Shown: positions 3,853 to 49,285 of the stretch, one piece after another
How positions within the stretch are numbered: the stretch's first letter is position 1
Layout of the letters: each line of letters starts with the position of its first letter
Source of the DNA: a virus
Length of the DNA stretch: 60,692 bases
Strand: one strand, 5' to 3'
Virus record (IMG/VR): IMGVR_UViG_3300009376_001565
Location: 1 to 60,692 of that record
Translations under genes and position numbers: made by a program
The notes under the pieces: generated by a model
The model's database searches: none
What the model saw: only the letters and a program-made list of their open reading frames with translations
What the model was told of the DNA's origin: nothing

Positions 3853-5349
3853 GTGGAAAATATTTGTTTAGTAACCCCTCCATCGCCTTTTCTATTAGAC
3901 GAACGGGTATTTATGCATATAGGGATTTTAAAGGTGGCTTCCTCTCTGGAGTCTGCAGGCCATCATGTAGATTTTTTAGATTTAAGTGGCATCGAGAATT
4001 TTTTAAAAGTTATTGAAGACTACTGTAAGATTAACCCGATTACCGTTTTTGGAATTACGGCCTCTACTCCGCAGGTTCCATTTGCAGTTCAGATAGCTGC
4101 GGTCATCCGAAAAGTTTCTCCTTCGGCCAAAATAATCTTGGGTGGACCACATGTAACGTTAATGAATACTGCATCTAAGAGAGAGATTAAGAAGGGTCTG
4201 GATAAGAGTGATAGAGCTACAAAAGATGTTGATAAACTTGCTGAGATTTTTGATGTATTAGTTTGTGGTGATGGAGAATTAACAATATTCCAGGCTTTAA
4301 AAATTGAGTCTGGTATTATCGATGCTGATGATAGAAAGTCTCCGTATTTTCTGTCAAATGCTGATTTTTCGACCCTTCCATTTCCGGCTAGACATTTGGT
4401 CGATGTAGATTCTTATCATTATTCTATCGAGGGTCATCGAGCGACAAGCTTGATAGCCCAACTTGGTTGTCCATTTAAGTGTGCTTTTTGTAGCGGCCGT
4501 AATTCTCCATTTCTAAGAAAGATTAGGCAAAGAAGCTCAGATTCAATTATCGATGAATTAAGGCTTCTTCACAAAGAATATGGTTTTACAGGGTTTATGT
4601 TTTATGACGATGAACTCAATGTCAACAAAGGGTTAATAGATCTTCTTAACAAAATAACAGATCTCCAGGATGAAGTTGGAGCAGAGTTCAGGTTGCGTGG
4701 TTTTGTAAAAGCCGAACTGTTCAATGATGCTCAGGCTGAAGCTATGTATAGAGCTGGTTTCCGATGGTTATTAACTGGATTTGAATCTGGCGACGAAAGA
4801 ATCTTAAAAAACATCCAGAAGATGGCTTCTCGAGATGACAATACTCGAGCTGTTGAAACAGCTAAACGTCATAACCTTAAAGTCAAGGCGCTGATGTCTA
4901 TAGGTCATGCTGGAGAAAGTCTGCAATCAATTGAGAATACAAAAAATTGGTTGTTAGAAGTAGAGCCAGAAGAATTTGACTGTACAATCATAACGACTTA
5001 TCCAGGTTCACCTTACTTTGATGATGCGATAATGAAAGATGGAATTTACGTCTATACGTCTAATTTAACAGGTGACAAACTATATCAGTCTAGTATTGAT
5101 TATTTGTCAGAGTTGGATTATTATAAGGGAGATCCTGAAGGCGGGTATATTTCTTATGTTTGGACGGACCATCTACAACCAGATCAGCTTGTGATTGCCC
5201 GCGACGCTTTAGAGAAGGAAGTCCGGGAGAAATTAAAAATTCCATTCAATCCAGCCCGCCCTGGGATAAAATATGAACACTCGATGGGAATGGGTAATGT
5301 TAAGATACCAGATCACATATTAAGGCGCTCAAGGAAAGTACAGCCATGA
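3853..5349 (+). CDS. B12-binding-type radical SAM enzyme
   Basis: The 498-residue protein has the layout of cobalamin-dependent (class B type) radical SAM enzymes. An N-terminal Rossmann-like domain spans about 1-140 (GITASTPQ, IILGGPH) and a radical SAM core follows with the CxxxCxxC iron-sulfur motif at C206, C210 and C213. The N-terminal domain lacks a clear DxHxxG motif, so any cobalamin would be bound without the usual His ligand. The GTG start is supported by an AAGGAG ribosome-binding site five bases upstream. Relatives methylate or rearrange unactivated carbons. Within a glycosyltransferase operon the likely substrate is a sugar, lipid or glycan, but this is inference. Confidence 0.85.
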   Translation: MENICLVTPPSPFLLDERVFMHIGILKVASSLESAGHHVDFLDLSGIENFLKVIEDYCKINPITVFGITASTPQVPFAVQIAAVIRKVSPSAKIILGGPHVTLMNTASKREIKKGLDKSDRATKDVDKLAEIFDVLVCGDGELTIFQALKIESGIIDADDRKSPYFLSNADFSTLPFPARHLVDVDSYHYSIEGHRATSLIAQLGCPFKCAFCSGRNSPFLRKIRQRSSDSIIDELRLLHKEYGFTGFMFYDDELNVNKGLIDLLNKITDLQDEVGAEFRLRGFVKAELFNDAQAEAMYRAGFRWLLTGFESGDERILKNIQKMASRDDNTRAVETAKRHNLKVKALMSIGHAGESLQSIENTKNWLLEVEPEEFDCTIITTYPGSPYFDDAIMKDGIYVYTSNLTGDKLYQSSIDYLSELDYYKGDPEGGYISYVWTDHLQPDQLVIARDALEKEVREKLKIPFNPARPGIKYEHSMGMGNVKIPDHILRRSRKVQP

Positions 5350-7223: not shown

Positions 7224-8041
7224 AAAAAGTTTTGTTCGTAATGGCTGAATATCCTGATTGGCGTCAGCAGTTTTTTGAAAAATACATGTCGCCAAAAAAT
7301 AAGGCCTATGCAGAAAAACACGGTTTTGAATATATTGAAATGAGAAAACTCCCCCGAGAGCCAGATGGAACATTTTATCGTAGCAATCCAACTTGGCTTA
7401 AACACAAGGTTGTACATGACTGGATTCAGGAGGGCTTTCTTGAAGATGGAGACATCGTTTCTCATATTGATGCAGATATTTGTATTTTTAATGATACAGA
7501 GTCTTTTGAACCTGCCCCGGGGAAATCTTTTGGTTACGCTATAGATTCGTGTAACTCTCATTGCATGGGGGCCTATACTATTAGGGTTAATGATTGGTCT
7601 AGGGAAATGCTTCGTCACATGTTAGATGATGAGTTTTATGGAAGAATGAAGAATGACCACCATTGGAAATCTTTTCGAGAGCAAGCGGCTTGGTATACAA
7701 TGACCGGAACGATTTATCACTCTTGGGTTCCGTTTAGCGATATGCCCAATTATGGATTTCATTCCTCGCCGACACGAGAACTAAAGTATACGTTAGAAGA
7801 ATTAGAAGAAAACGTCCAGGTCTTTCCAACAGAATGGAATGTGACACACATCGCTGGAGAGGGCTTTAATGACTATTTTATGATCCCAACGGTTAGACAA
7901 AAAACTGTTTTTCGCCATTTTGCAGGTGGCCAACGTTGGCAGTCAGAATATTTTACAGGCCAACAGCGTCAACCCAATTTAGATCCGGCTCACCTCGGAA
8001 CACGCGCGCAGGCTGAGGAATACGAAACAAATGAAATCTAA
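7220..8041 (+). CDS. GT-A glycosyltransferase, GT34-like (GMA12/MNN10 type)
   Basis: The 273-residue protein begins with a beta strand (VLFVMAEYPD) and has the metal-binding DAD triad at 84-86 within HIDADICIF. A conserved-looking NTHC-like region downstream (SCNSHCMGAYTIR) and HIAGEG near residue 214 recall the alpha-galactosyl/mannosyltransferase GMA12/MNN10 clan. It overlaps both neighbours (4 and 11 bases). No membrane anchor is visible, unlike the eukaryotic relatives. The family assignment is tentative; a GT-A fold with a DXD motif is clear. Confidence 0.68.
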   Translation: MKKVLFVMAEYPDWRQQFFEKYMSPKNKAYAEKHGFEYIEMRKLPREPDGTFYRSNPTWLKHKVVHDWIQEGFLEDGDIVSHIDADICIFNDTESFEPAPGKSFGYAIDSCNSHCMGAYTIRVNDWSREMLRHMLDDEFYGRMKNDHHWKSFREQAAWYTMTGTIYHSWVPFSDMPNYGFHSSPTRELKYTLEELEENVQVFPTEWNVTHIAGEGFNDYFMIPTVRQKTVFRHFAGGQRWQSEYFTGQQRQPNLDPAHLGTRAQAEEYETNEI

Positions 8042-8948
8042 GTTAAAAGTTAATTTTGAGAATTTCTGGGGAGATTTTCATAAAAAAGACAATTATTTCT
8101 ATAATCTTTTATCTCAAAAGTTTGATGTAGAGATCAGCGATAGTCCTGATCTTTTAATTTTTAGCTATGATTATACAGGTCGGAGAGCAGATAGAAACTA
8201 TGACCCAAGCAAAGTGGTAAAGGTCTTCTTTGGATGTGAGAATGTTCTTCCTGATTTTAATGACTGCCATGCTGCGCTAAGCCAGAAGTATATTGATAGT
8301 GATAATCATTTTCGACTTCCGCTCTGGACACAATACGTCAATTGGTTTGGCACGAGACCGATGGTTTCCAACAGGGATCAATGTTATTTGATTGACCCAA
8401 ATTCCCTGTTAGAGAAAAGATTTGATCCAGATGCATTATTGCGGCAGAAAACTAATTTCTGTAATTTTTTATATACTCAACCCCGAGGTTTGAGAATGAC
8501 TTTCATGGATTATTTTCATGGATACAAAAAGATAGATTCTGCTGGCAAGCTACATAACAACATGGGTGGGATTATTCAGGGCCGAAGTGACCATATCTTT
8601 AAGATTCTTTGGCAAGAGAGCTATAAGTTTACGGCATCCCTTGAAAACGATTTGGATCCTGGATGGACTACAGAGAAGCTCCTTCACCCGATGTCTACCT
8701 TGAGTTTACCAATTTATTGGGGTAACGAAAAGGTTGCTGACGAATTTAATACCGAGAGCTTCATTAACATCCATGATTACGATAGCATGGAACAAGTAGT
8801 CCAAAGAGTAATCGAGATTGATAACAACAATGATCTTTATTTAGAGATAATGTCTAGACCGTGGTTTAAAAATAGTGAATTTCCTGCTCATGTCTCTCCA
8901 CCGGCCGTTTTAGAGTTTTTTGAAAAAACACTGGATAAAGGATGTTAG
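8031..8948 (+). CDS. GT10 family alpha-1,3-fucosyltransferase-like protein
   Basis: The 305-residue protein contains the diagnostic GT10 donor-binding segment at about 198-231: YKFTASLENDLDPGWTTEKL, then the pattern LPIYWGN. In GT10 enzymes the Glu-Asn and the Tyr/Trp-x-Thr-Glu-Lys residues bind GDP-fucose. A GDP-mannose 4,6-dehydratase and a GDP-fucose-synthase-like gene later in the island could supply a GDP-6-deoxyhexose or GDP-3,6-dideoxyhexose donor. The length matches bacterial GT10 catalytic cores. The gene overlaps its neighbours by 11 and 7 bases. The family is confident; whether fucose or colitose is the donor is open. Confidence 0.88.
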   Translation: MKSKLKVNFENFWGDFHKKDNYFYNLLSQKFDVEISDSPDLLIFSYDYTGRRADRNYDPSKVVKVFFGCENVLPDFNDCHAALSQKYIDSDNHFRLPLWTQYVNWFGTRPMVSNRDQCYLIDPNSLLEKRFDPDALLRQKTNFCNFLYTQPRGLRMTFMDYFHGYKKIDSAGKLHNNMGGIIQGRSDHIFKILWQESYKFTASLENDLDPGWTTEKLLHPMSTLSLPIYWGNEKVADEFNTESFINIHDYDSMEQVVQRVIEIDNNNDLYLEIMSRPWFKNSEFPAHVSPPAVLEFFEKTLDKGC

Positions 8949-10675: not shown

Positions 10676-11815
10676 ATGAAAATTGTAGCAATGATCCCAG
10701 CCAGATTAGGATCTACAAGGGTTTCTAATAAAAACCTGAGAATGATAGATGGCAAACCTTTAATTGCATTTATTCTAGAGGCCGTTATTGCCTCTGGAAT
10801 GTTTGCCTTAGAAGACATTTACATAAATTCAGAAGCATCGATTTTCGGAACCATTGCAGACTCTTATGGTGTGCAGTTCTATAAAAGGGATGCATGGTTA
10901 TCTTCAGACGAGGCAACTAATGACGATTTTGCTTTAGATTTTATGGATCATATTCATGCGGACATTACGTTTCAATTTTTAGCAACATCCCCGTTTATAA
11001 CACCTGATGATGTCTCTAATTTTGTAAACAGAATGATCGAGTTAGATCTTGATACGTTAATTTCTGTTAAAGCTGAAAAAATAGAGTGCGTCTTTAATGA
11101 TACGCCGATTAATTTTGAACAAAACAAACAGACTCCGCCATCTCAATTATTGACCCCTGTTCACGCATATGCATGCGGAATGATGGGGTGGAGATCTTCT
11201 AAATTTATTGAAAACATGGAGAACTATGGAGCCGCGTATCATGGTGGCGATGGCGAAACTGATTTCTTTGAGTTACATGGATATGCCACAGTCGATATTG
11301 ATACAGAGGATGATTTTATGTTAGCTGAAGCAGTTAATACGTCCATGTCGTTACCGGCCCAAAAACCAACATATTATCGGCCAGATACTGACCCATTCGT
11401 AAATTATGAGGTGCATGTTCCAGAAATCTTGGATAAAGATGGCGTCCAAGGCCGAAATTTTGAGTTAGAAAACCAAACAATTGTAAACGCCGTCGAGATA
11501 ATTTCCAGTACCGATTCAGATTCATGGATTAGGAGAATTGTTAATACTGAGAACAACAGTTGCTGTCTTATTTCCCAACAGCCAGGACAAGGCAATCGAC
11601 GTCATTTCCATCCAAGTTGGAATGAATGGTGGTATATCGTTGATGGAGAATGGGATTTTGAAATTGCGGATCAGCATTTTACGATAAAAAAGGACGACAT
11701 CGTCTTCATTCCAAAGAATACGTGGCATAAAATTACAGCAATAGGAAACAAACCAGCGGTTAGGTTAGCTGTAAGCCGCGAAGACGTAAAGCATGGATAT
11801 GATACAAGAAAATGA
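10676..11815 (+). CDS. CMP-sugar cytidylyltransferase fused to a cupin domain
   Basis: The 379-residue protein has two domains. Residues 1-230 form a CMP-sialate/KDO-synthetase-type cytidylyltransferase: MIPARLGSTRVSNKN at 6-20 is the CTP-binding loop and DIDTEDDFMLAE near 207-218 is the conserved C-terminal acidic segment. Residues about 270-379 form a cupin: H310-x-H312 and E317 make metal motif 1, and H351 in the FIPKNTWHK turn makes motif 2. The enzyme should activate an acidic or modified sugar as CMP-sugar. The cupin could epimerise, isomerise or bind the sugar, or be regulatory. It begins a cassette of sugar-modifying enzymes and overlaps the next gene by 4 bases. Confidence 0.87.
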   Translation: MKIVAMIPARLGSTRVSNKNLRMIDGKPLIAFILEAVIASGMFALEDIYINSEASIFGTIADSYGVQFYKRDAWLSSDEATNDDFALDFMDHIHADITFQFLATSPFITPDDVSNFVNRMIELDLDTLISVKAEKIECVFNDTPINFEQNKQTPPSQLLTPVHAYACGMMGWRSSKFIENMENYGAAYHGGDGETDFFELHGYATVDIDTEDDFMLAEAVNTSMSLPAQKPTYYRPDTDPFVNYEVHVPEILDKDGVQGRNFELENQTIVNAVEIISSTDSDSWIRRIVNTENNSCCLISQQPGQGNRRHFHPSWNEWWYIVDGEWDFEIADQHFTIKKDDIVFIPKNTWHKITAIGNKPAVRLAVSREDVKHGYDTRK

Positions 11816-13017
11816 TAAAAACAGCGGCAATATCCAGTTTTCCGATTAGGATAAACTTTAACAAAAGTCGTGGAAATTTCCTTTATGATGACGAAACAGA
11901 CCGAGAATATTTAGATTTTTTTGGAATGTATTCTTCTCTTCCGCTAGGGTATAACCACCCGCATTTGCTAACAAAAGAATTTCAGCAAGAGATCTTAGAG
12001 GTATCACAATTCAGGGTATGTAACTGTAGGATAGACTCAAAACAAAAAAAAGAGTTTCTAGATAGTTTTGTTGAGTTTGCTGTCCCAAAAGAATTTTCAG
12101 CAATTCATTTTTCTTGTACTGGCGGTCTTGCAGTAGAGCACGCGTGTAAAACTGCAATGTTTCACACAAAAAAGAATAAGTTGATCCTAGGTGAAGACGC
12201 AGAGTATTTGTCTATTGTGAGTTTTAAAAATGGGTTTCATGGAATAACTTCGTTTGGAAATTTCACTACAAGTAAAACGGGTATCCCTGGTGATAGACTT
12301 TCAGGTTTTCCTGATTTATACTGGCCGAGGGTCTCTACGTCGCTAGATTTGAGAGAGCTTTTCAAGGCAGACCAGTGGAATGATATAGCAGGTGTAATCA
12401 TTGAACCTATCCAGTGTACGTTTGGTGACGTACATATTTCTATTGATGAGTTAAACCAAATACGAAACATTACTGAAGAACATGGGGTACCTTTGATTTT
12501 TGACGAGGTCCAAACTGGGTTTTGCGCCACCGGCCATAAGTGGTTTTTTAATAAATTAAGCTGGGTACCAGACATCGTAGTATTCGGAAAGAAGTCCCAG
12601 GTTTGCGGAATAATGGTTAAACGCGGCTTTGATTCTATATTTGAAAATCCGGAAGCAGGTCGTTTATGTATAACGTTCGACGGCGATTTAACCGATATGG
12701 TTAGGTGTAAACACATAATAAAGGCAATTACCGATTTAGGGCTTATTGAAAATGTTAACCAAAGATCTGAGCAGTTTATTTCAGCTTTAGTCAATGAACC
12801 TAAAATAAAAAACCTTCGTTCAGCAGGCGTTATCATAGGTTTTGATCTAAAAAATAAGGAAATTCGGGATACATTTGTTAACAATCTGTATAAAATTGGC
12901 ATGATTGTTAATTCTACTGGAGAGAAATCGGTAAGACTCCGGCCTTCCTTAAGCGTCTCTTCAAGCGAAATTTCCCTCGCAATACGGCTAATAAAGGAGG
13001 CCCTAAATGAAAATTGA
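11812..13017 (+). CDS. Class III PLP aminotransferase, L-lysine 6-aminotransferase-like
   Basis: The 401-residue protein is a fold-type I class III aminotransferase. IFDEVQTGF places the cofactor Asp at D231 and VFGKKSQVCG places the Schiff-base lysine at K260 or the adjacent K261. The FGKK-x-QVCG stretch and IIEPIQCTFGD closely recall lysine epsilon-aminotransferases (Lat) rather than ornithine or glutamate-semialdehyde members. In this context, between a CMP-sugar synthetase and a SIS isomerase, a keto-sugar or keto-cyclitol may be the amino acceptor. The gene overlaps both neighbours (4 and 11 bases). Class assignment is strong; substrate is not known. Confidence 0.85.
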   Translation: MIKTAAISSFPIRINFNKSRGNFLYDDETDREYLDFFGMYSSLPLGYNHPHLLTKEFQQEILEVSQFRVCNCRIDSKQKKEFLDSFVEFAVPKEFSAIHFSCTGGLAVEHACKTAMFHTKKNKLILGEDAEYLSIVSFKNGFHGITSFGNFTTSKTGIPGDRLSGFPDLYWPRVSTSLDLRELFKADQWNDIAGVIIEPIQCTFGDVHISIDELNQIRNITEEHGVPLIFDEVQTGFCATGHKWFFNKLSWVPDIVVFGKKSQVCGIMVKRGFDSIFENPEAGRLCITFDGDLTDMVRCKHIIKAITDLGLIENVNQRSEQFISALVNEPKIKNLRSAGVIIGFDLKNKEIRDTFVNNLYKIGMIVNSTGEKSVRLRPSLSVSSSEISLAIRLIKEALNEN

Positions 13018-13591
13018 TTTTGAAAACATTGAACAACGATGCCGCGATGCAATCGCGTCTAAGGACTACGGTCTATTAAAAGACAAAGTTACTAAAGCAA
13101 AGAAAATTTTTCTTTTAGGCAACGGTGGTCTTCATTATGTTGCCAGCCACATGGCAACAGATTTATCCAGGCTAATCCCAGATAAATCAGTATATTCTTT
13201 TGACAGCGTTGGTTTTATTACTTCAAACGCAAACGATCATGGTTTTGAACACTTGTTTGTTAGGTGGCTAGAGACGATTGCGTTAGTAGAAAATCCGGCC
13301 GATTGCTTAATAATTGGGATGTCTTGCTCTGGAAATTCATCCAATGTTATAAATGCCTTACATTGGGCAGACGATCGTGAAATTGATACTTTCATGGTTT
13401 CTGGACAAAAATCAGAGATCTTAAGGTCTGAAATCGATGAGATGAGCTACGAATGTGAGTACTTTCATACAGTTGAGGTAATGTGTATGATAGTATTCTA
13501 CGACCTAATTCATCAAACCGATAACAAGTGCCCATCGATTAGAGGCGAAAAGAATCGGCTCAAGGGTTCTTCTTTAAGGGGCCTTGAATAG
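13007..13591 (+). CDS. SIS-domain sugar isomerase, GmhA-like
   Basis: The 194-residue protein has a single SIS (sugar isomerase) fold of the phosphoheptose isomerase type: IFLLGNGGLHYVASHMATDL near 35-54 and the phosphate-binding Ser-rich loop GMSCSGNSSNVINAL. GmhA converts sedoheptulose 7-phosphate to heptose 7-phosphate. Its length matches GmhA (about 190). A strong AAAGGAGG site lies in the end of the previous gene, and the ATG overlaps that gene by 11 bases. In this cassette it could act on a C7 or C9 phosphosugar, but the exact substrate is inferred only. Confidence 0.82.
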   Translation: MKIDFENIEQRCRDAIASKDYGLLKDKVTKAKKIFLLGNGGLHYVASHMATDLSRLIPDKSVYSFDSVGFITSNANDHGFEHLFVRWLETIALVENPADCLIIGMSCSGNSSNVINALHWADDREIDTFMVSGQKSEILRSEIDEMSYECEYFHTVEVMCMIVFYDLIHQTDNKCPSIRGEKNRLKGSSLRGLE

Positions 13592-13599
13592 GATTTAAT

Positions 13600-14322
13600 T
13601 TGCAGATAAACTTTAAAAACAAGACTGTTCTTATAACTGGCGGTACTCGTGGTATCGGCCGGTCTTTAGTTGATTTATTCATTTCACTTGATGCGAATGT
13701 TATCTATACTGGTTGTGGAGATTTGCAGCAGCCTCTCTCCCCTGATACGATTTATTATCAGGTAGATTTTTCAGTAAAGAAATCCATTGATAAATTTGTT
13801 AAAAATATTGAAAATAAGGACGTTGATATTTTAATCAACAACGCTGGAATAAACGCCATAAACCCGATAGGCGACTTTAGAGATTCGGATTGGGATGAGA
13901 TCATGGCCGTTAATTTAACAGCTCCTTATAAAATAACAAAAGCCGTATCGGGTTACATGAAGGCTAATGGCGGCGGTAAAATTGTGAACATTTCTTCAAT
14001 CTATGGACTAGTTGGAAAGTCTCATAGGGCAGGATATAGCGCAAGTAAATTTGGGATTAGGGGATTAACAGCTGCCGTTGCTGCAGAATTAGCAGAACAT
14101 AACATCCTGGTTAATACAGTTGCGCCAGGGTTTACATTGACTGATTTGACGACAGAAATCTTAGGCGTCGATGGAATTGAGCGAGTTTCAAGCACAATTC
14201 CGATGGGTCGTTTAGCACAGCCCGAAGAAATCGCTAAAGCCATTATTTTTCTTGTTAGCGACTTAAACACCTACATTTCTGGCCAAACACTTACTGTTGA
14301 TGGCGGTTTTGTCAATGTATAA
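13600..14322 (+). CDS. Short-chain dehydrogenase/reductase (SDR)
   Basis: The 240-residue protein is a classical SDR: cofactor motif TGGTRGIG at 13-20, NNAG at 80-83, catalytic Ser near 133 (ISSIYG) and YSASK at 146-150. The C-terminal ISGQTLTVDGG is the normal family end. The start is a TTG at 13600, chosen because the frame from it yields the complete first beta strand. FabG-like SDRs reduce keto groups; flanked by an isomerase and a cyclase-like protein, it probably acts on a keto-sugar or cyclitol. The stop overlaps the next start by 8 bases. Confidence 0.87.
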   Translation: MQINFKNKTVLITGGTRGIGRSLVDLFISLDANVIYTGCGDLQQPLSPDTIYYQVDFSVKKSIDKFVKNIENKDVDILINNAGINAINPIGDFRDSDWDEIMAVNLTAPYKITKAVSGYMKANGGGKIVNISSIYGLVGKSHRAGYSASKFGIRGLTAAVAAELAEHNILVNTVAPGFTLTDLTTEILGVDGIERVSSTIPMGRLAQPEEIAKAIIFLVSDLNTYISGQTLTVDGGFVNV

Positions 14323-15376
14323 GCCGCTAGAAGTTCAGTCCTATAGAGGAAAATATTCAGTATCTTTTGTTGGTACTGTCACCGGCCTTTCGAAAATTGA
14401 AGGAGACTGTTTTTTGCTTATAGATAAAAACGTAAACAGCCTATACCCAGAATTTTCAAATAGTTTCCAGAACAGGGTCATTGAGATCTATCCAGACGAA
14501 AGAAGCAAGTCGCTTGGCTATTGTGCGGAAATCATCGATCGGCTTATAGAGATGGGTATAAAAAAATCTAGCAAAATAGTTGCAGTTGGGGGAGGGATAA
14601 CGCAAGATATTTCTGGTTTTATTTCTTCTATAATTTACCGCGGTATTGATTGGGTTTTTTTCCCAACAACCTTACTGGCTCAGGCCGATAGCTGCATTGG
14701 TAGTAAAACTTCAATTAATTTTGATGGAGCAAAAAACCTATTAGGCACGTTTTATCCACCGTCTCAGATCTACTGTTGTTTGGAGTTTTTGCATACGTTG
14801 GATGCTGAAGACATTAAGTCTGGGATTGGTGAAATTATTCATTATTATATTCCCGAAAACCTAACTTACGTTGAGGCGTTAATGGCGAATTATAAAAAAA
14901 TCCTCCAGCATCCAACTCGACCACACCTAATACCCCACGTTTATAGAAGCCTTCAGATAAAAAAGAAAATGGTTGAACTTGATGAATTTGATTCCGGCCC
15001 TCGTCGTTTATTCAATTACGGGCATACATTCGGACATGCAATAGAAACAGTTAGCGATTTTAAAATTCCGCATGGACAGGCCGTTACAATGGGAATTGGT
15101 TTAGCAAACTATGTTTCATGGAAAAAAGGATTATTATATCCTCAACAAAAGAACCTAATCCAAAAGCTTATTGAAGAAAACATGCCCGATTTTTTAATCG
15201 ATGAGACAAATGTCGATGATTTTATGACCGCGCTTAAGAAGGATAAAAAGAACGGCCCGGGTAACATTACTTGTATTTTGTTGGACTGTACATTTAGGCT
15301 CCAACAGTTTATAATAGAAGATATAGATGGGCTGCGAACTATAATTCTGGCTTATTTCGATAAGAGGAAAACATGA
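14315..15376 (+). CDS. 3-dehydroquinate-synthase-like sugar phosphate cyclase
   Basis: The protein is 353 residues from the ATG at 14315 (an in-frame TTG at 14297 would add six residues). It belongs to the DHQ synthase/sugar phosphate cyclase family: NAD-binding GGGITQDISGF, the PTTLLAQADSCIGSKTSIN segment, KNLLGTFYPP, and the zinc-binding NYGHTFGHAIE. The E-x-x-K-Y-G segment of AroB (EVIKYG) reads EIIHYY here, so a conserved lysine is His, and the DER of AroB reads DEF. This suggests a substrate other than DAHP, for example another heptulose or nonulose phosphate. It sits between SDR and glycosyltransferase-like genes. Function is inferred from family membership. Confidence 0.83.
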   Translation: MYKPLEVQSYRGKYSVSFVGTVTGLSKIEGDCFLLIDKNVNSLYPEFSNSFQNRVIEIYPDERSKSLGYCAEIIDRLIEMGIKKSSKIVAVGGGITQDISGFISSIIYRGIDWVFFPTTLLAQADSCIGSKTSINFDGAKNLLGTFYPPSQIYCCLEFLHTLDAEDIKSGIGEIIHYYIPENLTYVEALMANYKKILQHPTRPHLIPHVYRSLQIKKKMVELDEFDSGPRRLFNYGHTFGHAIETVSDFKIPHGQAVTMGIGLANYVSWKKGLLYPQQKNLIQKLIEENMPDFLIDETNVDDFMTALKKDKKNGPGNITCILLDCTFRLQQFIIEDIDGLRTIILAYFDKRKT

Positions 15377-16235: not shown

Positions 16236-17396
16236 ATGATAAGGTTAGTTGAGGATACGATTGACAATAATGACATAGACGACCTCATTAAGTGGTTGCA
16301 AACTTATCCGAGGCTTACTAAAGGTCCGATGACGGTAGAGTTTGAGAAGAAATGGGCTAAATATATGGGGGTTGCGGAATCAGTTTTTGTAAATTCTGGA
16401 TCTTCTGCAAACCTTGTAATGCTCCAAGTTCTACTAGAATCTGGCCGTATTAAAAAGGGCGATGCAGTTGTAGTCCCAGCCCTTGCCTGGGCTACCGATC
16501 TCTCCCCTGTCGTTCAGCTTGGTTTAGAACCTGTTCTGTGTGACTGTAATTTAGAAGATTTGTCGATAGATTTACAGCACTTTGAAAACATTTGCAAAAT
16601 ACACGATGTAGCTGCAATCATGTTTGTTTCCGTATTGGGTCTCGTACCAAACATGGAAACGTTGGGAGACCTGTGCTCTAAGCACAATGTTTATCTACTA
16701 GAGGATACATGCGAATCCTTCGGTTCTAAATTCCAGAATATGAAATTAGGGACATTTGGGATTATGTCAACTTTTTCAACTTATTTTGGGCACCACCTAT
16801 CAACGATTGAAGGAGGCATAATTTGCACAGACGATCCAGAGATTGCCGATTATGCTAGGTGCATTCGTAACCATGGTTGGGATAGAGACTTTACCGATGA
16901 GAAAAAGCTACAGCTCCGTGAAACATGGGGGGTTAGCGAATTCGATTCATTGTATACATTCTATATGCATGGATTTAACGTAAGGTCAACTGATTTACAG
17001 GCCTTCATCGGCCTTGGCCAACTAGATAAAGCGGATGATATTAACGCTCGCCGAGAAGCAAATTTTAGACTGTATCAGGATCAGGTAAAAAATTCGTACT
17101 GGAAGCCACTTTATCGGCCTGGCAGTTATGTCTCTAGTTTTGCTTATCCCGTTATTCATCCGAAAAGAGATGCTATCGTATCCGCGCTTCAATCGGCCGA
17201 CGTTGAGGTAAGGCCGATGATTTGCCGATCTATGGGCGTTCAACCGTTTTATGTAAAGCACTATGGAAAAAGGGTCTTAAAAAATGCTGATGTAGTTGAT
17301 AAATTTGGGCTGTATGTCCCTAATCACCCTAGTATGAAAGAGAGCTCTATTGCTGAAGTGGCTTCAATAATCAACAAAGTAATTGGAGAAAAATAA
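16236..17396 (+). CDS. colD: DegT/DnrJ-family PLP sugar dehydratase, ColD-like (active-site Lys replaced by His)
   Basis: The 386-residue protein is a DegT/DnrJ/EryC1/StrS-fold enzyme: VNSGSSANL for PLP phosphate and LEDTCESFG with the cofactor Asp at 157. The Schiff-base lysine position holds His (STYFGHHLSTIEGG, H186-H187). This is the known hallmark of GDP-4-keto-6-deoxymannose 3-dehydratase ColD, where the His is the catalytic base, and of the related CDP-sugar E1 dehydratase. Other ColD-like stretches are CIRNHGWDRD and GFNVRSTDLQAFIG. It would use GDP-4-keto-6-deoxymannose made by the Gmd at 22170-23204. The next gene, GDP-fucose/colitose-synthase-like, overlaps by one base. The dehydratase call is well supported; colitose as final product is inferred. 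Confidence 0.85.
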   Translation: MIRLVEDTIDNNDIDDLIKWLQTYPRLTKGPMTVEFEKKWAKYMGVAESVFVNSGSSANLVMLQVLLESGRIKKGDAVVVPALAWATDLSPVVQLGLEPVLCDCNLEDLSIDLQHFENICKIHDVAAIMFVSVLGLVPNMETLGDLCSKHNVYLLEDTCESFGSKFQNMKLGTFGIMSTFSTYFGHHLSTIEGGIICTDDPEIADYARCIRNHGWDRDFTDEKKLQLRETWGVSEFDSLYTFYMHGFNVRSTDLQAFIGLGQLDKADDINARREANFRLYQDQVKNSYWKPLYRPGSYVSSFAYPVIHPKRDAIVSALQSADVEVRPMICRSMGVQPFYVKHYGKRVLKNADVVDKFGLYVPNHPSMKESSIAEVASIINKVIGEK

Positions 17397-18322
17397 TGAA
17401 AATACTTGTAACTGGAGGCACAGGGATGGTTGGGCAAGGTTTTACAAGGTTGGAAACCGACCATGAATTAATTTTATATGGATCAAACCAGTATGACTTG
17501 AGGGATGAGGATCAAGTTGATGACATGTTTTATCGTAATCAGGTTGATGCAGTTATCCATTTAGCCGCAAAAGTTGGCGGAGTAAAAGGGAACTCTGATT
17601 ACATAGCAGATTTTTTCCACGACAACATTATAATGAATACAAATTTGCTCAACGCTGCGAAAAACTATAAGATACCGAAAGTCTTGTCTTTATTATCTAC
17701 ATGTGTATACCCCGATGATGTAACGTATCCGTTGACGGAAGACCAGATACACAGTGGTGAACCGCATAAAAGTAACTTTGGTTACGCGTATGCCAAGAGA
17801 ATGTTAGACGTCTATTCTAGGGCGCTTCGGCAGCAATACGCGTGCAATTTTATAACCGCAATCCCAAACAATATTTACGGACCTGGTGATAATTTTCATC
17901 TAGACTATGGCCACGTTATCCCGGCGATTATCAGAAAAGTCTGGGAAGCAAAACATAATGATAGGCCGGCAGTATTATGGGCCACCGGTCGGGCCCTTCG
18001 GGAATTTACTTACTCTGATGATGTTGCTAGAAGCCTTATAGTGTTATTGGAAAGCTATGATTCTGTTAAGCCAATAAACATTGGCAAAACAACAGAATAT
18101 TCTATTAAGCAAATCGCGATGACGGTATGCAGAATATTCGATTATGATTTTGATTTAATAGAATGGGATGACTCCAAACCAGAGGGACAATACAGGAAAC
18201 CAAGCTCAAACAAAGAGTTCTTAAAAAGATATCCAGAATTTGAATATACAGATTTTGAACATGGGCTTCGAAAAACGTGCAAATGGTTTGAAAAGAATTA
18301 CCCCAATGTTAGGGGTTGCTAA
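17396..18322 (+). CDS. fcl: GDP-L-fucose synthase / GDP-colitose synthase-like epimerase-reductase
   Basis: The 308-residue protein is an extended SDR of the GDP-fucose synthase group: GGTGMVG at 7-13, HLAAKVGGVKGN, catalytic S101/C103 in LSTCVYP, and the Y130/K134 pair in YAYAK. The length fits Fcl and ColC, which share this fold and motifs. Fcl epimerises and reduces GDP-4-keto-6-deoxymannose to GDP-L-fucose; ColC does the equivalent to the 3-deoxy intermediate made by ColD. Because a ColD-like gene lies immediately upstream with a one-base overlap, a ColC role is plausible. Sequence inspection alone does not separate the two. Confidence 0.85.
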   Translation: MKILVTGGTGMVGQGFTRLETDHELILYGSNQYDLRDEDQVDDMFYRNQVDAVIHLAAKVGGVKGNSDYIADFFHDNIIMNTNLLNAAKNYKIPKVLSLLSTCVYPDDVTYPLTEDQIHSGEPHKSNFGYAYAKRMLDVYSRALRQQYACNFITAIPNNIYGPGDNFHLDYGHVIPAIIRKVWEAKHNDRPAVLWATGRALREFTYSDDVARSLIVLLESYDSVKPINIGKTTEYSIKQIAMTVCRIFDYDFDLIEWDDSKPEGQYRKPSSNKEFLKRYPEFEYTDFEHGLRKTCKWFEKNYPNVRGC

Positions 18323-18975
18323 TGCCGCTTATCCATAAGCACAAACTAGTTTTTCAACACATACCCAAAACTGCAGGACTATCTATATGTAATTTTTTCG
18401 AAGTAACAGGCGACGGCCACCAACATATTCAATGGTATCACAAGGTCCTAGATCAACAGAATCAGGGCTGGGATGAATGGAGGGCCTTTACTGTTGTTCG
18501 AGACCCAATTGATAGATTTTTATCTGCATGGAAGATGTATAATCGGATTCCAGAAGGTCAAGAAAACAATGATTCTATTTTCCGTCTAAAGAATAAATGC
18601 CCAGAACTATTTAGTCTCTCAATAGACGAGTTTATTAATTATGAAATTTTGCATAAGCTTGGGTGTGATGAAGATGCATTTCATTTCTGGCCTGTTACAA
18701 ACTATTATCAGTCGGGGAATCCAAAGACTTTAGAAAAGACAAATTTGTGCCCTCACTATGTGCTAAAGTTTGAGCAGCTTCATTCTGACATGAGTAGTCT
18801 GTCAAATATAATTGGTTTTGATTACAATAAATTGCCCCATAAAAACTATAGCCCAGCAGAACAATTGAAAATTTCTGCAGAAAGTGAAAAAAAACTAGAG
18901 CATTATTTTGCAGAAGATTACAGTCTTTTAAATAGGTTTATAGATGAAGCTCACGTGGGATTACTGTGCCGATAA
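18322..18975 (+). CDS. Sulfotransferase family protein (carbohydrate type), copy 1
   Basis: The protein is 217 residues from the ATG at 18322, which overlaps the upstream stop as TAATG; an in-frame TTG six bases earlier is less likely. The N-terminal FQHIPKTAGLSI is the 5'-phosphosulfate loop, and VVRDPIDRFLSAW is the 3'-phosphate-binding motif of PAPS sulfotransferases of the heparan 2-O / sulfotransferase_2 type. It should transfer sulfate from PAPS to a sugar hydroxyl. It has no membrane anchor, unlike Golgi relatives. It is followed by a paralogous gene overlapping by 10 bases. Confidence 0.85.
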   Translation: MPLIHKHKLVFQHIPKTAGLSICNFFEVTGDGHQHIQWYHKVLDQQNQGWDEWRAFTVVRDPIDRFLSAWKMYNRIPEGQENNDSIFRLKNKCPELFSLSIDEFINYEILHKLGCDEDAFHFWPVTNYYQSGNPKTLEKTNLCPHYVLKFEQLHSDMSSLSNIIGFDYNKLPHKNYSPAEQLKISAESEKKLEHYFAEDYSLLNRFIDEAHVGLLCR

Positions 18976-19682
18976 TTAACGATCATAATTTTTTCTTCAT
19001 CCATATTGCCAAAACCGGTGGTACCTCGATTTGTGATTACTTTGGGATCGGTAGGAATGGGCACAAAAGTTTTCAGCATTATTTAGTAGACATTACGGAA
19101 GAAGAGTTTCATAAATTCGAATCTATGACGGTAGTTCGAGAGCCGATATCTAGGTTTGTTTCAGCATGGAATATGGTAGCTCACCCTGACGATGCAACGT
19201 GTTTTGAAGAACTACGGACAAAATACTCTCCGCTTTTTGAAGGAAATATAAATGATTTTATTTTATCTGGGGCTTTAATAGATTTAGCGTATGACGATGA
19301 CGCTCCTTGGTTCTGGCATCAAACCCGTCAACTTCTGTTTATGGATGGTGAAAAAAAGATGGTTTTTATACCAAGATATGTTTTACTTTTTGAACAGCTT
19401 CTTCAAGATTTAAGCTCGTTTGCTCAAGCAACTGGATTTGATTTTAGGCCGTCTGATTTTCCTCATTCGATGAAGTCTACCGCGGTAGATAAAAAAGAGC
19501 AAATATCCTCCGACGCGCACGGACGCCTGTTTGCACATTATTATGCCGATTATTTTCTAATAAATAGCGTTCTAGCAACTAAGTTTATTGATCCCAAGTG
19601 CAGGATCTTAAACCCAGCTGTATTTGGCTCTGGAAGAGACTGTGCAGGTTTTATGGAGTTAAACGAAGATGATTTCAAATAG
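18966..19682 (+). CDS. Sulfotransferase family protein (carbohydrate type), copy 2
   Basis: The 238-residue protein starts at GTG 18966 inside the end of copy 1. It has the same two PAPS motifs: FIHIAKTGGTSI (5'-phosphosulfate loop) and VVREPISRFVSAW (3'-phosphate site). Similarity extends through the middle (LLFEQLLQDLSSF against LKFEQLHSDMSSL in copy 1), so the two genes look like an old tandem duplication that has diverged, perhaps for different positions on the glycan. It overlaps the GalE-like gene by 14 bases. Substrate unknown. Confidence 0.83.
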   Translation: MPIINDHNFFFIHIAKTGGTSICDYFGIGRNGHKSFQHYLVDITEEEFHKFESMTVVREPISRFVSAWNMVAHPDDATCFEELRTKYSPLFEGNINDFILSGALIDLAYDDDAPWFWHQTRQLLFMDGEKKMVFIPRYVLLFEQLLQDLSSFAQATGFDFRPSDFPHSMKSTAVDKKEQISSDAHGRLFAHYYADYFLINSVLATKFIDPKCRILNPAVFGSGRDCAGFMELNEDDFK

Positions 19683-20679
19683 AGTATTAGTTACGGGTGT
19701 TGCTGGATTATTAGGAAGTCACTTAGCTGAGTTTTTAGTTAAGAACGGATATAGCGTTATAGGAATCGATAACCTAAGTGGGGGATACATTGAGAACGTG
19801 CCAGCTGGTGTTAAATTTTATCAAACAGATCTGTTGGATGACGTTGACGTTGATTCTATTGTGCGTGATAACAACGTTGACTTTATTTATCATTTTGCAG
19901 CTTACGCTGCCGTAGGATTAAGCCCTTTTATAAGGAGGTTCAATTATCAAAATAACATAATTGCTTCTACAAATCTTATAAATTCGTCGATTAGACATGG
20001 CATAAAAAAGTTTGTCTTCGCTAGTTCTATGGATGTATACGGCGAACAGAATCCTCCATTTCTAGAGAGTTTAACGCCAGCACCAATGGATCCATATGGT
20101 ATTGCCAAATATGCCATAGAGATGGACCTGGCCAATGCCTGGCGCCAGTTTGGCTTGAATTATACAGTTATAAGGCCTCATAATGTAATAGGCCCCAGAC
20201 AAAATATTTGGGATAGATACCGGAATGTTGCTGGAATTTGGATTCGAAAGGCCATGGCTGAGGAGCCATTAACTATTTACGGCGATGGTGAACAACGGCG
20301 GGCTTTTAGCGATGTAAAGTTCTACATGGAGCCCTTTGCGAAGCTTATCTTAAACAATGACGCCGATCAACATATAATAAACATTGGCGCAGATAAAGAT
20401 GTTTCTATTAACGAATTGGCAACAATAGTTCAGGATGTAGCTCATAATAAAACTGGTCTTCGGCCAGCTAGAATTTATTTAGAGCCGAGGGATGAAGTAA
20501 AGTTTATGTGGTGTAATCATGATAAGGCGAAAGATTTGCTAGAATTTGTCGACAAAACTGATCTTTATACGTTAATCGATGAAACATGGGAATGGGCTAA
20601 GATGATTAAACCAAAGCCTGTTAAGACCATGGATTATGAGTTAGAAAAGGGCATGTACGATTATTGGAAGACAGAATGA
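19669..20679 (+). CDS. NAD-dependent epimerase/dehydratase, GalE-like
   Basis: The 336-residue extended SDR has the NAD-binding GVAGLLG at 10-16, ASSMDVYG near 118-125 and the catalytic YGIAK at 143-147. The overall length matches UDP-glucose 4-epimerase and related nucleotide-sugar epimerases. The C-terminal half (NIGADKDVSINELA, DNHDKAKDLLEF-like) is typical of the family. It could make UDP-galactose, UDP-galacturonate or UDP-GalNAc depending on substrate; these cannot be told apart here. It lies between sulfotransferase genes and overlaps both (14 and 4 bases). Confidence 0.85.
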   Translation: MISNRVLVTGVAGLLGSHLAEFLVKNGYSVIGIDNLSGGYIENVPAGVKFYQTDLLDDVDVDSIVRDNNVDFIYHFAAYAAVGLSPFIRRFNYQNNIIASTNLINSSIRHGIKKFVFASSMDVYGEQNPPFLESLTPAPMDPYGIAKYAIEMDLANAWRQFGLNYTVIRPHNVIGPRQNIWDRYRNVAGIWIRKAMAEEPLTIYGDGEQRRAFSDVKFYMEPFAKLILNNDADQHIINIGADKDVSINELATIVQDVAHNKTGLRPARIYLEPRDEVKFMWCNHDKAKDLLEFVDKTDLYTLIDETWEWAKMIKPKPVKTMDYELEKGMYDYWKTE

Positions 20680-21347
20680 CTAAGGCTATTTTTATCTCTA
20701 TTCCAAGAAATGCATCTGGTAGTATCGAAAGAGCATGCGCAAATTTATCGGGCTTTACGTATTTTAATGATGATCCGGAGAAGATGAATCGGGGATTTTT
20801 AGAGCAAAGGTCTTGGTACAGAGCAAAACAGAAGTATTCAGAGTCGTGGAATAATGCTAAAAAGTTTGGGGTCATTCGAAATCCCTGGTCTCGCGTTGTG
20901 TCCATGTATCATCATAAAACCTTGGTAGATCCAGCATGGTCATTTTCAGAATTTATCAATTTAATCCCTGCATTGTGTGCTGCTAGAATTAAGCAAAGCA
21001 GTCCAAAAGCATCTAGGCATCACCCAGATAAATACATTATCCAGCACCATGTTCTACCGCAGGTTTTACATTTCTACGACCTGGATCATAACTGTGTACT
21101 AGATCACGTTTTGACGTTTGAGAATCTTCAAGAAGACTTTGACCAATTTCTTAAAACGCTAGGTATAGAGCCGACTATTTTAAGACACTATAATTTTTCT
21201 GGTCCAGGTGCCCCTCAGGGAAAGTCGACAACTAGAAAATATACTGAATTTTATACCGAACCGTGGATGATCGAAGAGGTCGGCAGGATTTATGTAGAAG
21301 ACATAAGGTTTGGAAATTACAAATTTGGACAGGAGTATGAAAAGTGA
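20676..21347 (+). CDS. Sulfotransferase-like protein, copy 3
   Basis: The protein is 223 residues from the ATG at 20676, which overlaps the previous stop as ATGA; a TTG 12 bases upstream is in frame but not needed. AIFISIPRNASGSI fits a 5'-phosphosulfate loop with Arg-Asn in place of Lys-Thr, and FGVIRNPWSRVVSMY fits the 3'-phosphate site. FENLQEDFDQFLKTLGI resembles the matching region of the other two copies. It is the most divergent of the three, and the Lys-to-Arg change in the sulfate loop makes activity less certain. It probably acts on the same glycan pathway. Confidence 0.75.
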   Translation: MTKAIFISIPRNASGSIERACANLSGFTYFNDDPEKMNRGFLEQRSWYRAKQKYSESWNNAKKFGVIRNPWSRVVSMYHHKTLVDPAWSFSEFINLIPALCAARIKQSSPKASRHHPDKYIIQHHVLPQVLHFYDLDHNCVLDHVLTFENLQEDFDQFLKTLGIEPTILRHYNFSGPGAPQGKSTTRKYTEFYTEPWMIEEVGRIYVEDIRFGNYKFGQEYEK

Positions 21348-22177
21348 AAATTGGAATAATAGGTCAGGGATTTGTTGGGTCTGCCATTAGAGAAGGCCTT
21401 AAGGGCTTCTATGATGTTTTAACTTATGATATTGATGAATCAAAGTGTAACAGCTCTCACATTGATGTATGCAATAAAACCGACATTATTTTTGTGTGTA
21501 TACCAACCCCAATGCGAAAAGGCGGAGAGTGTGATACTAGGCTACTAGAAAGCGTTGTCGAAAAACTTCAAGACGAGTGTGGTAAACTTAACAAAACACC
21601 AATTTTGGTAATAAAGTCGACTGTGCCGCCTGGAACAACTACAAGAATTTATAACAAAGGATATCTTGATGTTTGTTTCAGTCCCGAATTTTTAACCGAA
21701 GCAAACTCTTTTGATGATTTCAAAAATCAAAGCAGAATTATAATAGGTGGCTCAGGGGCCAAAAAAGTAAAGAGAATGTTTCGAAAGCCATTTCCAAGGA
21801 TCCCCATTATTGTTACCAAAGCAGAAACTGCCGAAATGGTAAAATATTTCACGAATTGTTTCCTTGCAACGAAAGTTACGTTTGCTAACCAGATGTACGA
21901 AATTTGCGACGACGCAGGCATTGATTATGATAAGGTCTGCGAATATGCATTGTATGACGAAAGGATTGGTAAAAGTCACTTAGCAGTCCCGGGTCCTGAT
22001 GGCGACAGAGGTTTTGGCGGCCACTGTTTTCCGAAAGATTTAAATGCGATGATTAGATTTGCAGAACAAAATAGTGTGTCTGAATTCTTTTTAAAAGCTG
22101 TAAACATTGCAAATAACGACTATAGGGCAGATAAAGATTGGGAAAAAATGAAAGGAAGGGCAGTATCAGATGACTAA
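21344..22177 (+). CDS. Nucleotide-sugar dehydrogenase (UDP-glucose dehydrogenase family), short form
   Basis: The 277-residue protein starts at GTG 21344 overlapping the previous stop. It has the NAD-binding GQGFVGSAI, the CIPTPMRKGG loop, IKSTVPPGTT, FSPEFLTEAN and the catalytic Cys228 in FGGHCFPKDLNA. Family members oxidise the C6 hydroxyl of UDP-glucose, UDP-sugar or GDP-mannose to a uronate. Typical enzymes have 390-450 residues; this one stops about 50 residues after the active-site Cys and lacks the third, nucleotide-sugar-binding domain. The frame ends cleanly into the gmd gene, so this looks like a genuine short form, not a frameshift. The uronic acid product is inferred. Confidence 0.85.
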   Translation: MKIGIIGQGFVGSAIREGLKGFYDVLTYDIDESKCNSSHIDVCNKTDIIFVCIPTPMRKGGECDTRLLESVVEKLQDECGKLNKTPILVIKSTVPPGTTTRIYNKGYLDVCFSPEFLTEANSFDDFKNQSRIIIGGSGAKKVKRMFRKPFPRIPIIVTKAETAEMVKYFTNCFLATKVTFANQMYEICDDAGIDYDKVCEYALYDERIGKSHLAVPGPDGDRGFGGHCFPKDLNAMIRFAEQNSVSEFFLKAVNIANNDYRADKDWEKMKGRAVSDD

Positions 22178-23204
22178 AAAGACAGCAATAATAACAGGGG
22201 TTACCGGACAAGATGGAAGCTATTTAGCCGAATTGCTTTTGGAAAAAGGCTATAAGGTTGTCGGCATCAAGAGAAGGACAAGTCTAATAAATACCGAAAG
22301 AGTAGATTGGATTTATAACAATCCAGACTTTAAGATGGTCTATGGGTCTATGCACGATTCCACGTGGATGTACCGTGTCCTATCCGAACATAAGCCTGAT
22401 GAGATCTATAATCTGGCTGCGCAAAGCCATGTCAGGGTTAGTTTTGAAGTGCCTGTTGAGACCGTTGATTCAATTGCTATGGGTACGCTAAAGCTATTAG
22501 AAGCTTGGCGAGCAATCTGCCCAGATGCAAAATTTTATCAGGCCTCTTCATCAGAAATGTATGGAGACAATCCAGAGCATCCACAAAACGAAGACACGAA
22601 GCTAATGCCGGCATCCCCGTATGCTTGCGCAAAAGTGTTTGGGCACAACATGGTTCGGCATTATCGTCAGGCTTACGGAATGTTTGCTTGCTGCGGTATT
22701 CTTTTCAATCATGAATCTGAACGAAGGGGAGAAACTTTCGTAACTAGAAAGATAACTTTGGCTGCAGCCAGAATTAAGTGCAAAATACAAGATAAACTTT
22801 ATTTAGGAAATCTAGATGCAAAGAGAGATTGGGGTCATGCCAAAGATTATGTTGAGGCAATGTGGCTAATGCTTCAGCACGACGAGCCCGGTGATTATGT
22901 AGTTGCCACAGGAGAAACCCACACGGTTCGAGAGTTTTTGCAGGAGGTTTTCGATTATGCCAATTTATCTATAGAAAATTATGTTGACATAGATGAAAGG
23001 CTGTTTCGGCCACATGAAGTGCCTTTACTTTTAGGAGATCCGACCAAAGCAGAAACTGTCTTAGGCTGGAAACCTAAATATGATTTTAAGCTCTTGGCTA
23101 AGGCAATGTATAGCGCAGATCTTCGGTTAGTTATGAAACAAGCCAGCGCTGATGGGAAGAACATTCCTATTGAAGCCTATAGCTCCCCTAAACAAAACAA
23201 CTAA
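22170..23204 (+). CDS. gmd: GDP-mannose 4,6-dehydratase
   Basis: The 344-residue extended SDR has all Gmd hallmarks: TGVTGQDGSYLAELLLEKGY from residue 9 with the Gly-rich loop, GIKRR for NADP ribose-phosphate, NLAAQSHV, SSSEMYGD at 126-133 with the catalytic Ser/Glu, YACAK at 151-155 and NHESERRGETFVTRKI for GDP binding. It converts GDP-D-mannose to GDP-4-keto-6-deoxymannose, the precursor for the ColD-like and Fcl-like enzymes upstream. It overlaps the preceding gene by 8 bases and is the last gene before a 37-base gap, so it closes the main glycan operon. Confidence 0.96.
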   Translation: MTKKTAIITGVTGQDGSYLAELLLEKGYKVVGIKRRTSLINTERVDWIYNNPDFKMVYGSMHDSTWMYRVLSEHKPDEIYNLAAQSHVRVSFEVPVETVDSIAMGTLKLLEAWRAICPDAKFYQASSSEMYGDNPEHPQNEDTKLMPASPYACAKVFGHNMVRHYRQAYGMFACCGILFNHESERRGETFVTRKITLAAARIKCKIQDKLYLGNLDAKRDWGHAKDYVEAMWLMLQHDEPGDYVVATGETHTVREFLQEVFDYANLSIENYVDIDERLFRPHEVPLLLGDPTKAETVLGWKPKYDFKLLAKAMYSADLRLVMKQASADGKNIPIEAYSSPKQNN

Positions 23205-49279: not shown

Positions 49280-49285
49280 CAGTTA

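Follow-up and report, generated by a model that had tools for sequence, protein, structure and literature searches.

Which product does a phage make with five consecutive genes for a nucleotide-sugar synthetase, an aminotransferase, a sugar-phosphate isomerase, an oxidoreductase and a cyclase-like enzyme? The question is raised by a 60,692-base virus record (IMG/VR IMGVR_UViG_3300009376_001565; "the window" refers to this entire stretch of DNA), in which such a cassette lies at 10676-15376 and phage baseplate and sigma-factor genes lie downstream of it. An earlier note on this DNA had proposed that the cassette makes a C7 cyclitol amine activated with cytidine monophosphate (CMP), with sedoheptulose 7-phosphate as the starting compound. 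Comparison with related sequences, in which gene content, linkage, enzyme classes, intact catalytic residues, natural gene replacements and one gene fusion can be read directly, points elsewhere. With belief and doubt about evenly balanced, we propose that the cassette is the phage form of a surface-sugar module that is widespread and whose product would be a CMP-activated amino sugar of the 2-keto-acid type, i.e. similar to sialic acid or 3-deoxy-D-manno-octulosonic acid (Kdo).

Gene content and integrity of the cassette

All five open reading frames (ORFs) are intact and on one strand (Table 1). The junctions are, in gene order, a 4-bp overlap, an 11-bp overlap, an 8-bp gap and a 26-bp overlap, the last provided that translation begins at the TTG codon. 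The description of five named genes that are consecutive and mostly overlapping was thus borne out in ORFs, order and domains, with three overlaps and a single gap. The domain assignment is firm for four of the five proteins, the SIS protein scoring below the Pfam gathering score, and catalytic residues are complete in the cytidylyltransferase-cupin fusion (CTP-cupin), the class III aminotransferase (AT3) and the protein resembling 3-dehydroquinate synthase (DHQS). Compared with other phages, nonsynonymous divergence (pN) of the cassette is 0.12-0.28 while synonymous sites are saturated, and we conclude that the genes are under purifying selection.

Table 1. Genes of the cassette in the window
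Position	Strand	Product	Evidence
10676-11815	+	Cytidylyltransferase (CMP-NeuAc/PseF-type) with C-terminal metal cupin (CTP-cupin)	PF02348, Cupin_2
11812-13017	+	Class III pyridoxal phosphate (PLP) aminotransferase, Lat-like (AT3)	Aminotran_3
13007-13591	+	SIS-domain sugar-phosphate isomerase, viral subfamily, not GmhA	gmhA model match, GmhA fold
13600-14322	+	SDR oxidoreductase, conserved partner encoded just before the DHQS-like protein	PF13561
14297-15376	+	DHQ-synthase-like NAD/metal phospholyase, TIGR04425 clade	TIGR04425, DHQ_synthase

Distribution of the cassette in viruses and bacteria

IMG/VR was scanned for relatives of the DHQS-like protein with a hand-made motif and then with an alignment query. 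In these DHQS-ascertained scans, all five genes were found in 25 other viral contigs, a few of which are near-copies; therefore, the grouping is not due to chance. The order of the window is found in 10 of these contigs, the order CTP-SDR-DHQS-AT3-SIS in 11 and other orders in 4. One locus binned as Thaumarchaeota (L044) also carries a cassette of the viral type and groups with a viral locus (L129); it is probably a mis-binned phage.

Unlike in these metagenomic contigs, the cassette was not found in a search of 50,697 deposited phage records, in line with the statement of the earlier note that no phage pathway of this makeup is known. In these records, tblastn with the DHQS-like, SIS, CTP-cupin and AT3 proteins gave matches at the level of AroB, GmhA and generic aminotransferases at most, and blastn with the whole cassette gave no match. 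Similarly, PHROGs held no family for the CTP-cupin, the DHQS-like protein or the one GT29 protein tested, and a literature search, mostly without subscription papers, yielded nothing relevant, whether on this combination of genes, on TIGR04425 by name or on a CMP-sialic pathway in phages. The baseplate protein of the window is 31-34% identical to those of Flavobacterium and Microcystis phages, so that the phage is only distant kin of isolates.

The bacterial comparison set comprised 80 loci from many phyla. The earlier note had suggested looking for the five-gene order in bacterial surface polysaccharide loci. In this set, almost all loci have the SDR-DHQS pair, whereas the remaining partners differ from those in the viral cassette and include a Gfo/Idh dehydrogenase (65 loci), a PGDH-like protein (61) and a different SIS protein (61). 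Enzymes related to 2-keto-3-deoxy acids are present as HpaI-type aldolases (36/80), KdsB-like proteins (28/80) and NanQ-like YhcH proteins (27/80). Of 296 genomes sampled from a single order, only three had TIGR04425 members above the cut-off; thus, the family is a sporadic accessory trait in the sampled order.

The DHQS-like protein and its SDR partner

The DHQS-like protein matches DHQ_synthase (PF01761) with 120 bits. Its best-fitting model is NCBIfam TIGR04425, with 387.1 bits, 13 below the cut-off of 400; copies above that cut-off occur in the genomes of two loci (L093, 458 bits; L096, 400 bits). In a tree, the protein and all its viral and bacterial homologs form one clade of 98 rows on a long stem (support 100/99), separate from AroB, DOIS, EEVS and DDGS. 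The viral sequences from cassettes with AT3 are scattered in this tree, the supported branches of which require at least nine changes of label; the SDR-DHQS pair was thus either acquired by such cassettes more than once or exchanged among them. The SDR (PF13561, 168 bits) is encoded directly upstream of the DHQS-like protein in 141 related loci and overlaps it in 127. The EboD cluster (PMC5133447) was considered as a relative, compared outside the tree and set aside for its different gene partners.

The AlphaFold model of the DHQS-like protein is a confident DHQS fold (pLDDT 93). We mapped active-site residues onto the numbering of the Aspergillus nidulans DHQS. The metal, phosphate and carboxylate residues of AroB are retained throughout the DHQS-like family. 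The one striking change is at AroB Lys197, which is His182 in the window; His is also found here in most other sequences, namely in 26 of 27 from AT3-type viral loci and in 67 of 78 from bacteria. The other AroB catalytic positions in the protein are kept or conservatively changed. The carboxylate pair K250/R264, which corresponds to K222/R236 in the window, is conserved in 158/158 homologs; the equivalent H. pylori residues, K210/R224, were reported to bind the carboxyl group of 3-deoxy-D-arabino-heptulosonate 7-phosphate (DAHP) (PMC3701698). The three sequences compared for EEVS, the S. clavuligerus sedoheptulose-7-phosphate cyclase and DDGS have M at position 250, A, K or D at 264 and P at 275, and the DOIS sequence has Gly at 264. 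The protein of the window has K, R and H at 250, 264 and 275 and does not show the residue loss of the sedoheptulose-7-phosphate cyclases. Because the K250/R264 equivalents are kept, these residues favour a 2-keto-acid phosphate rather than sedoheptulose 7-phosphate as the probable substrate. Kdo-8-phosphate was considered, some relatives being accompanied by KdsA; its ring geometry does not match that of DAHP.

The synthetase, the aminotransferase and the SIS protein

The CTP-cupin matches PF02348 with 61 bits and Cupin_2 with 54 bits, and its matches in the PDB are PpNeuA and a CMP-NeuAc synthetase. Its score with the PseF model (68.2 bits) is below the cut-off of 205.7; it is of the CMP-NeuAc/PseF type in having PF02348 with KN, QxTSP-like and DxD motifs. 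The NeuA-type synthetase residues K19/N20, Q100..TSP and D207/D209, as well as the cupin residues H310/H312/E317/H351, are conserved in 35 homologs. AT3 matches Aminotran_3 with 198 bits, and the best NCBIfam model is Lat (L-lysine 6-aminotransferase) with 276.2 bits, below the cut-off of 520.8. Its residues K260, D231, E198 and R375/R377 are invariant in 25 homologs, and the PLP residues are intact.

The SIS protein was described in the earlier note as GmhA-like. This is correct for the fold, the best Foldseek matches being GmhA structures (TM score up to 0.74), but not for the catalytic residues. The match to the gmhA model is 62.3 bits, below the cut-off of 209, and E65, Q172 and H180, which together with S55 we take to be catalytic in GmhA, are replaced by D, E and Y in 36/36 viral homologs; S55 is usually L, as in the window. 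Therefore, we do not file the SIS protein as a heptose isomerase.

Natural gene replacements in related cassettes

Replacements were counted in loci ascertained by the SIS gene. In seven contigs, AT3 is replaced by an aminotransferase of the DegT type that has the PLP lysine. In other contigs, a small protein with HAD motifs, mostly encoded within the operon, takes the place of SDR-DHQS. The DHQS and HAD genes are mutually exclusive: after removal of near-copies, 34 loci have DHQS only, 11 have HAD only, none has both and 10 have neither (p = 3e-6). The HAD proteins match models of a capsule-biosynthesis phosphatase, BT0820 and GmhB weakly. Moreover, in one contig (L264, 9998-10978) a single ORF encodes the viral SIS domain joined to a HAD-type phosphatase domain.

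These replacements suggest which step each gene serves. In the simplest reading, HAD and SDR-DHQS would handle the same phosphate, the former by hydrolysis and the latter by elimination. Because a HAD phosphatase replaces the SDR-cyclase pair in otherwise similar cassettes, formation of a carbocycle is not intrinsic to this type of pathway.

Transferases and keto-acid enzymes near related loci

Viral DHQS loci were compared as AT3-type loci (n=27) and the other viral, thiamine pyrophosphate (TPP)-type loci (n=36). A gene of GT29, a sialyltransferase family, lies near 19 of the 27 AT3-type loci and none of the 36 others (p = 4e-10), and genes for MptE-like/CST-I transferases lie near 10 of 27 and 0 of 36. 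All 20 aligned GT29 members match PF00777; CST-I is matched as well by some of the MptE-like members. GT29 and MptE-like enzymes are of kinds that use donors of the CMP-sialic type. Together with the type of the synthetase, these neighbours support the part of the earlier note that stands, namely that the cassette is dedicated to a CMP-activated, probably aminated sugar.

The loci of the other viral type combine SDR-DHQS with an acetolactate-synthase-like enzyme and either an HpcH-type aldolase (17/36) or a NeuB-like cluster (18/36). One contig of the latter group (L183) matches the NeuB model, and the others were assigned to NeuB by eye. HpcH-type aldolases and NeuB both make 2-keto-3-deoxy acids. 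KdsA was found in the L144/L230, L241 and L140/L141 phages, L249 also matches the KdsA profile, and PF00793 is present in two of 29 related contigs.

Two side observations concern these loci. The phage proteins of the GT29 sialyltransferase family are encoded in L129, L124 and 18 other viral loci; as stated above, the member tested is without a PHROGs family. The second viral DHQS module (most of L159-L201) also has an epimerase, and a kinase-like gene (cluster c29) mostly accompanies its NeuB-like form.

Proposed pathway and alternative explanations

We infer the order of the steps as well as the classes of substrate and product. The SIS protein would isomerise a sugar phosphate. A 2-keto acid phosphate, probably 3-deoxy, from the host or, in some relatives, made with a phage KdsA or NeuB, would be fed to the DHQS-like enzyme, which, with bound NAD and metal, would expel the phosphate by oxidation, elimination and reduction, the SDR setting the redox state for this step. 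SDR and the DHQS-like phospholyase would thus stand in for the HAD sugar phosphatase of the sister cassettes. AT3 would aminate the carbonyl left after loss of the phosphate, the CTP-cupin would attach CMP, and a sialyltransferase-type enzyme would move the sugar onto a phage or host glycan. We speculate that elimination without ring closure could give a terminal methyl ketone and that its amination could give an amino group next to a terminal methyl group, a pattern that pseudaminic and legionaminic acids show.

Several points weigh against this proposal. The normal product of a DHQS reaction is a carbocycle, which has no ordinary anomeric centre for activation with CMP. The residue argument for the substrate uses four non-DHQS reference cyclases that were identified by annotation only, and the assignment of the HAD protein is weak at the profile level (best E 6e-6) and partly motif-based. 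The window, which is a fragment, was searched for a GT29 or MptE-type transferase, and none was found; moreover, it has no KdsA-family enzyme (PF00793 absent), and no NeuB was identified in it. In most AT3-type viral contigs, no KdsA, NeuB or HpcH-type enzyme was found, so that the keto acid would have to be supplied by the host. Finally, the literature search yielded no biochemistry for any TIGR04425-type member.

The pathway of the earlier note, in which a GmhA-like isomerase and a sedoheptulose-7-phosphate cyclase yield a C7 cyclitol that is then reduced, aminated and CMP-activated, fits the enzyme classes superficially, the DHQS fold being common to all sugar phosphate cyclases, and its aminotransferase step is well supported. 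We consider it improbable, given that the cyclase has carboxylate residues of the DHQS type and groups apart from the sedoheptulose-7-phosphate cyclases, that the SIS protein is without the GmhA catalytic residues, that some cassettes use a HAD phosphatase instead of the SDR-cyclase pair, and that the CMP synthetase and the neighbouring sialyltransferase-type enzymes are of the keto-acid-sugar type. The earlier note was therefore probably wrong on sedoheptulose 7-phosphate and on the GmhA step. The same DHQS-type features bring up a function as an ordinary AroB that raises aromatic amino-acid synthesis in the host, the sugar genes being neighbours by chance: the protein has the PF01761 fold, most AroB active-site residues and 261 bits with the aroB model (260.9 before rounding). 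We regard this as highly improbable, because that score is below the cut-off of 305, the clade is distinct at 100/99, Lys197 is replaced by His, the SDR partner is constant and sugar-cassette neighbours recur in many contigs.

Closure of the ring by the DHQS-like enzyme, with CMP activation at the tertiary hydroxyl of the resulting acid (aminated and quinate-like, i.e. a carba-ulosonic acid), would agree with the confidently predicted DHQS fold and with the checked catalytic and carboxylate-binding residues, which are kept except for Lys197. It is unlikely in that ordinary transfer by sialyltransferase-type enzymes requires an anomeric carbon and that the HAD cassettes share the same synthetase and GT29 families. 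There would also be a slim chance that the enzyme cyclises a keto-acid sugar phosphate, in which case an aminated "carba-sialic acid" activated with CMP would be a product of phages and of many bacteria; we know of no description of such an activated carbocyclic sugar analogue. A further explanation is that there are two products, CTP-cupin, AT3 and SIS making one CMP-sugar while SDR-DHQS modifies another sugar. In its favour, some contigs have CTP-AT3-SIS but no DHQS, and others have SDR-DHQS but no CTP-AT3-SIS; we find it doubtful, because DHQS and the HAD phosphatase, which is mostly in the same operon and once fused to SIS, are strictly exclusive and because 25 contigs keep all five genes, although their order varies.

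Other genes in the window

The DegT and epimerase genes downstream of the cassette (16236-18322) were considered as a part of it and rejected; with a His at the PLP lysine and a match to ColD, this DegT protein belongs to a GDP-colitose/fucose set. The genes at 16236-18322 and 22170-23204 encode a ColD-like 3-dehydratase, a GDP-fucose/colitose synthase and a GDP-mannose 4,6-dehydratase, and the window likely holds a complete GDP-colitose or fucose set. A GT10 fucosyltransferase-like gene is located at 8031-8948. One glycan island contains three Sulfotransfer_2 genes (18316-18975, 18966-19682 and 20664-21347), which suggests a sulfated glycan. The gene at 3853-5349 encodes a B12-binding radical SAM enzyme with ~80% identity to genes in three viral loci (L153, L160 and L172); most other genes in common are far less similar. 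Finally, a reading frame of 3,804 codons that starts at 49280 has no stop before the contig ends at 60692 and probably encodes a giant tail protein.

Comparison with known systems

Surface-sugar loci of many bacterial phyla and of phages encode a large clade of DHQS-like proteins that are readily mistaken for DHQ synthase in annotation. The cassette suggests that there is a CMP-sugar so far unrecognised, with which virions or host surfaces may be decorated. The closest described family is TIGR04425 (AroB-related putative sugar phosphate phospholyase, cyclizing), with which the protein of the window shares the clade, the active-site residues and the overlapping SDR partner; it differs in scoring below the 400-bit cut-off and in having AT3 and viral-SIS partners that are mainly viral. 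The sedoheptulose-7-phosphate cyclases EEVS and DDGS, as well as DOIS, share the superfamily fold and the NAD/metal mechanism, whereas their carboxylate-site residues and clade are different.

In a prophage system for 8-epipseudaminic acid, two enzymes, EpaA and EpaB, were reported to modify a host-made sugar (PMC12053666). The cassette resembles this system in that phage-encoded enzymes act on a surface sugar of the CMP-activated type; the window instead carries a five-enzyme synthesis cassette. With the sialic, pseudaminic and legionaminic acid pathways, the cassette shares a CMP-NeuAc/PseF-like synthetase, amination and, near homologous cassettes, GT29/GT42/MptE-like transferases, while the DHQS-like step has no counterpart in them. 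The Kdo pathway, consisting of the SIS isomerase KdsD, the synthase KdsA, the HAD phosphatase KdsC and the cytidylyltransferase KdsB, has the same logic of isomerisation, phosphate removal and CMP activation, and the HAD variants of the cassette come closest to it. Compared with the Kdo pathway, the window has SDR and a phospholyase instead of a phosphatase, an added aminotransferase and no KdsA, and its synthetase is nearer to the CMP-NeuAc/PseF synthetases than to KdsB.

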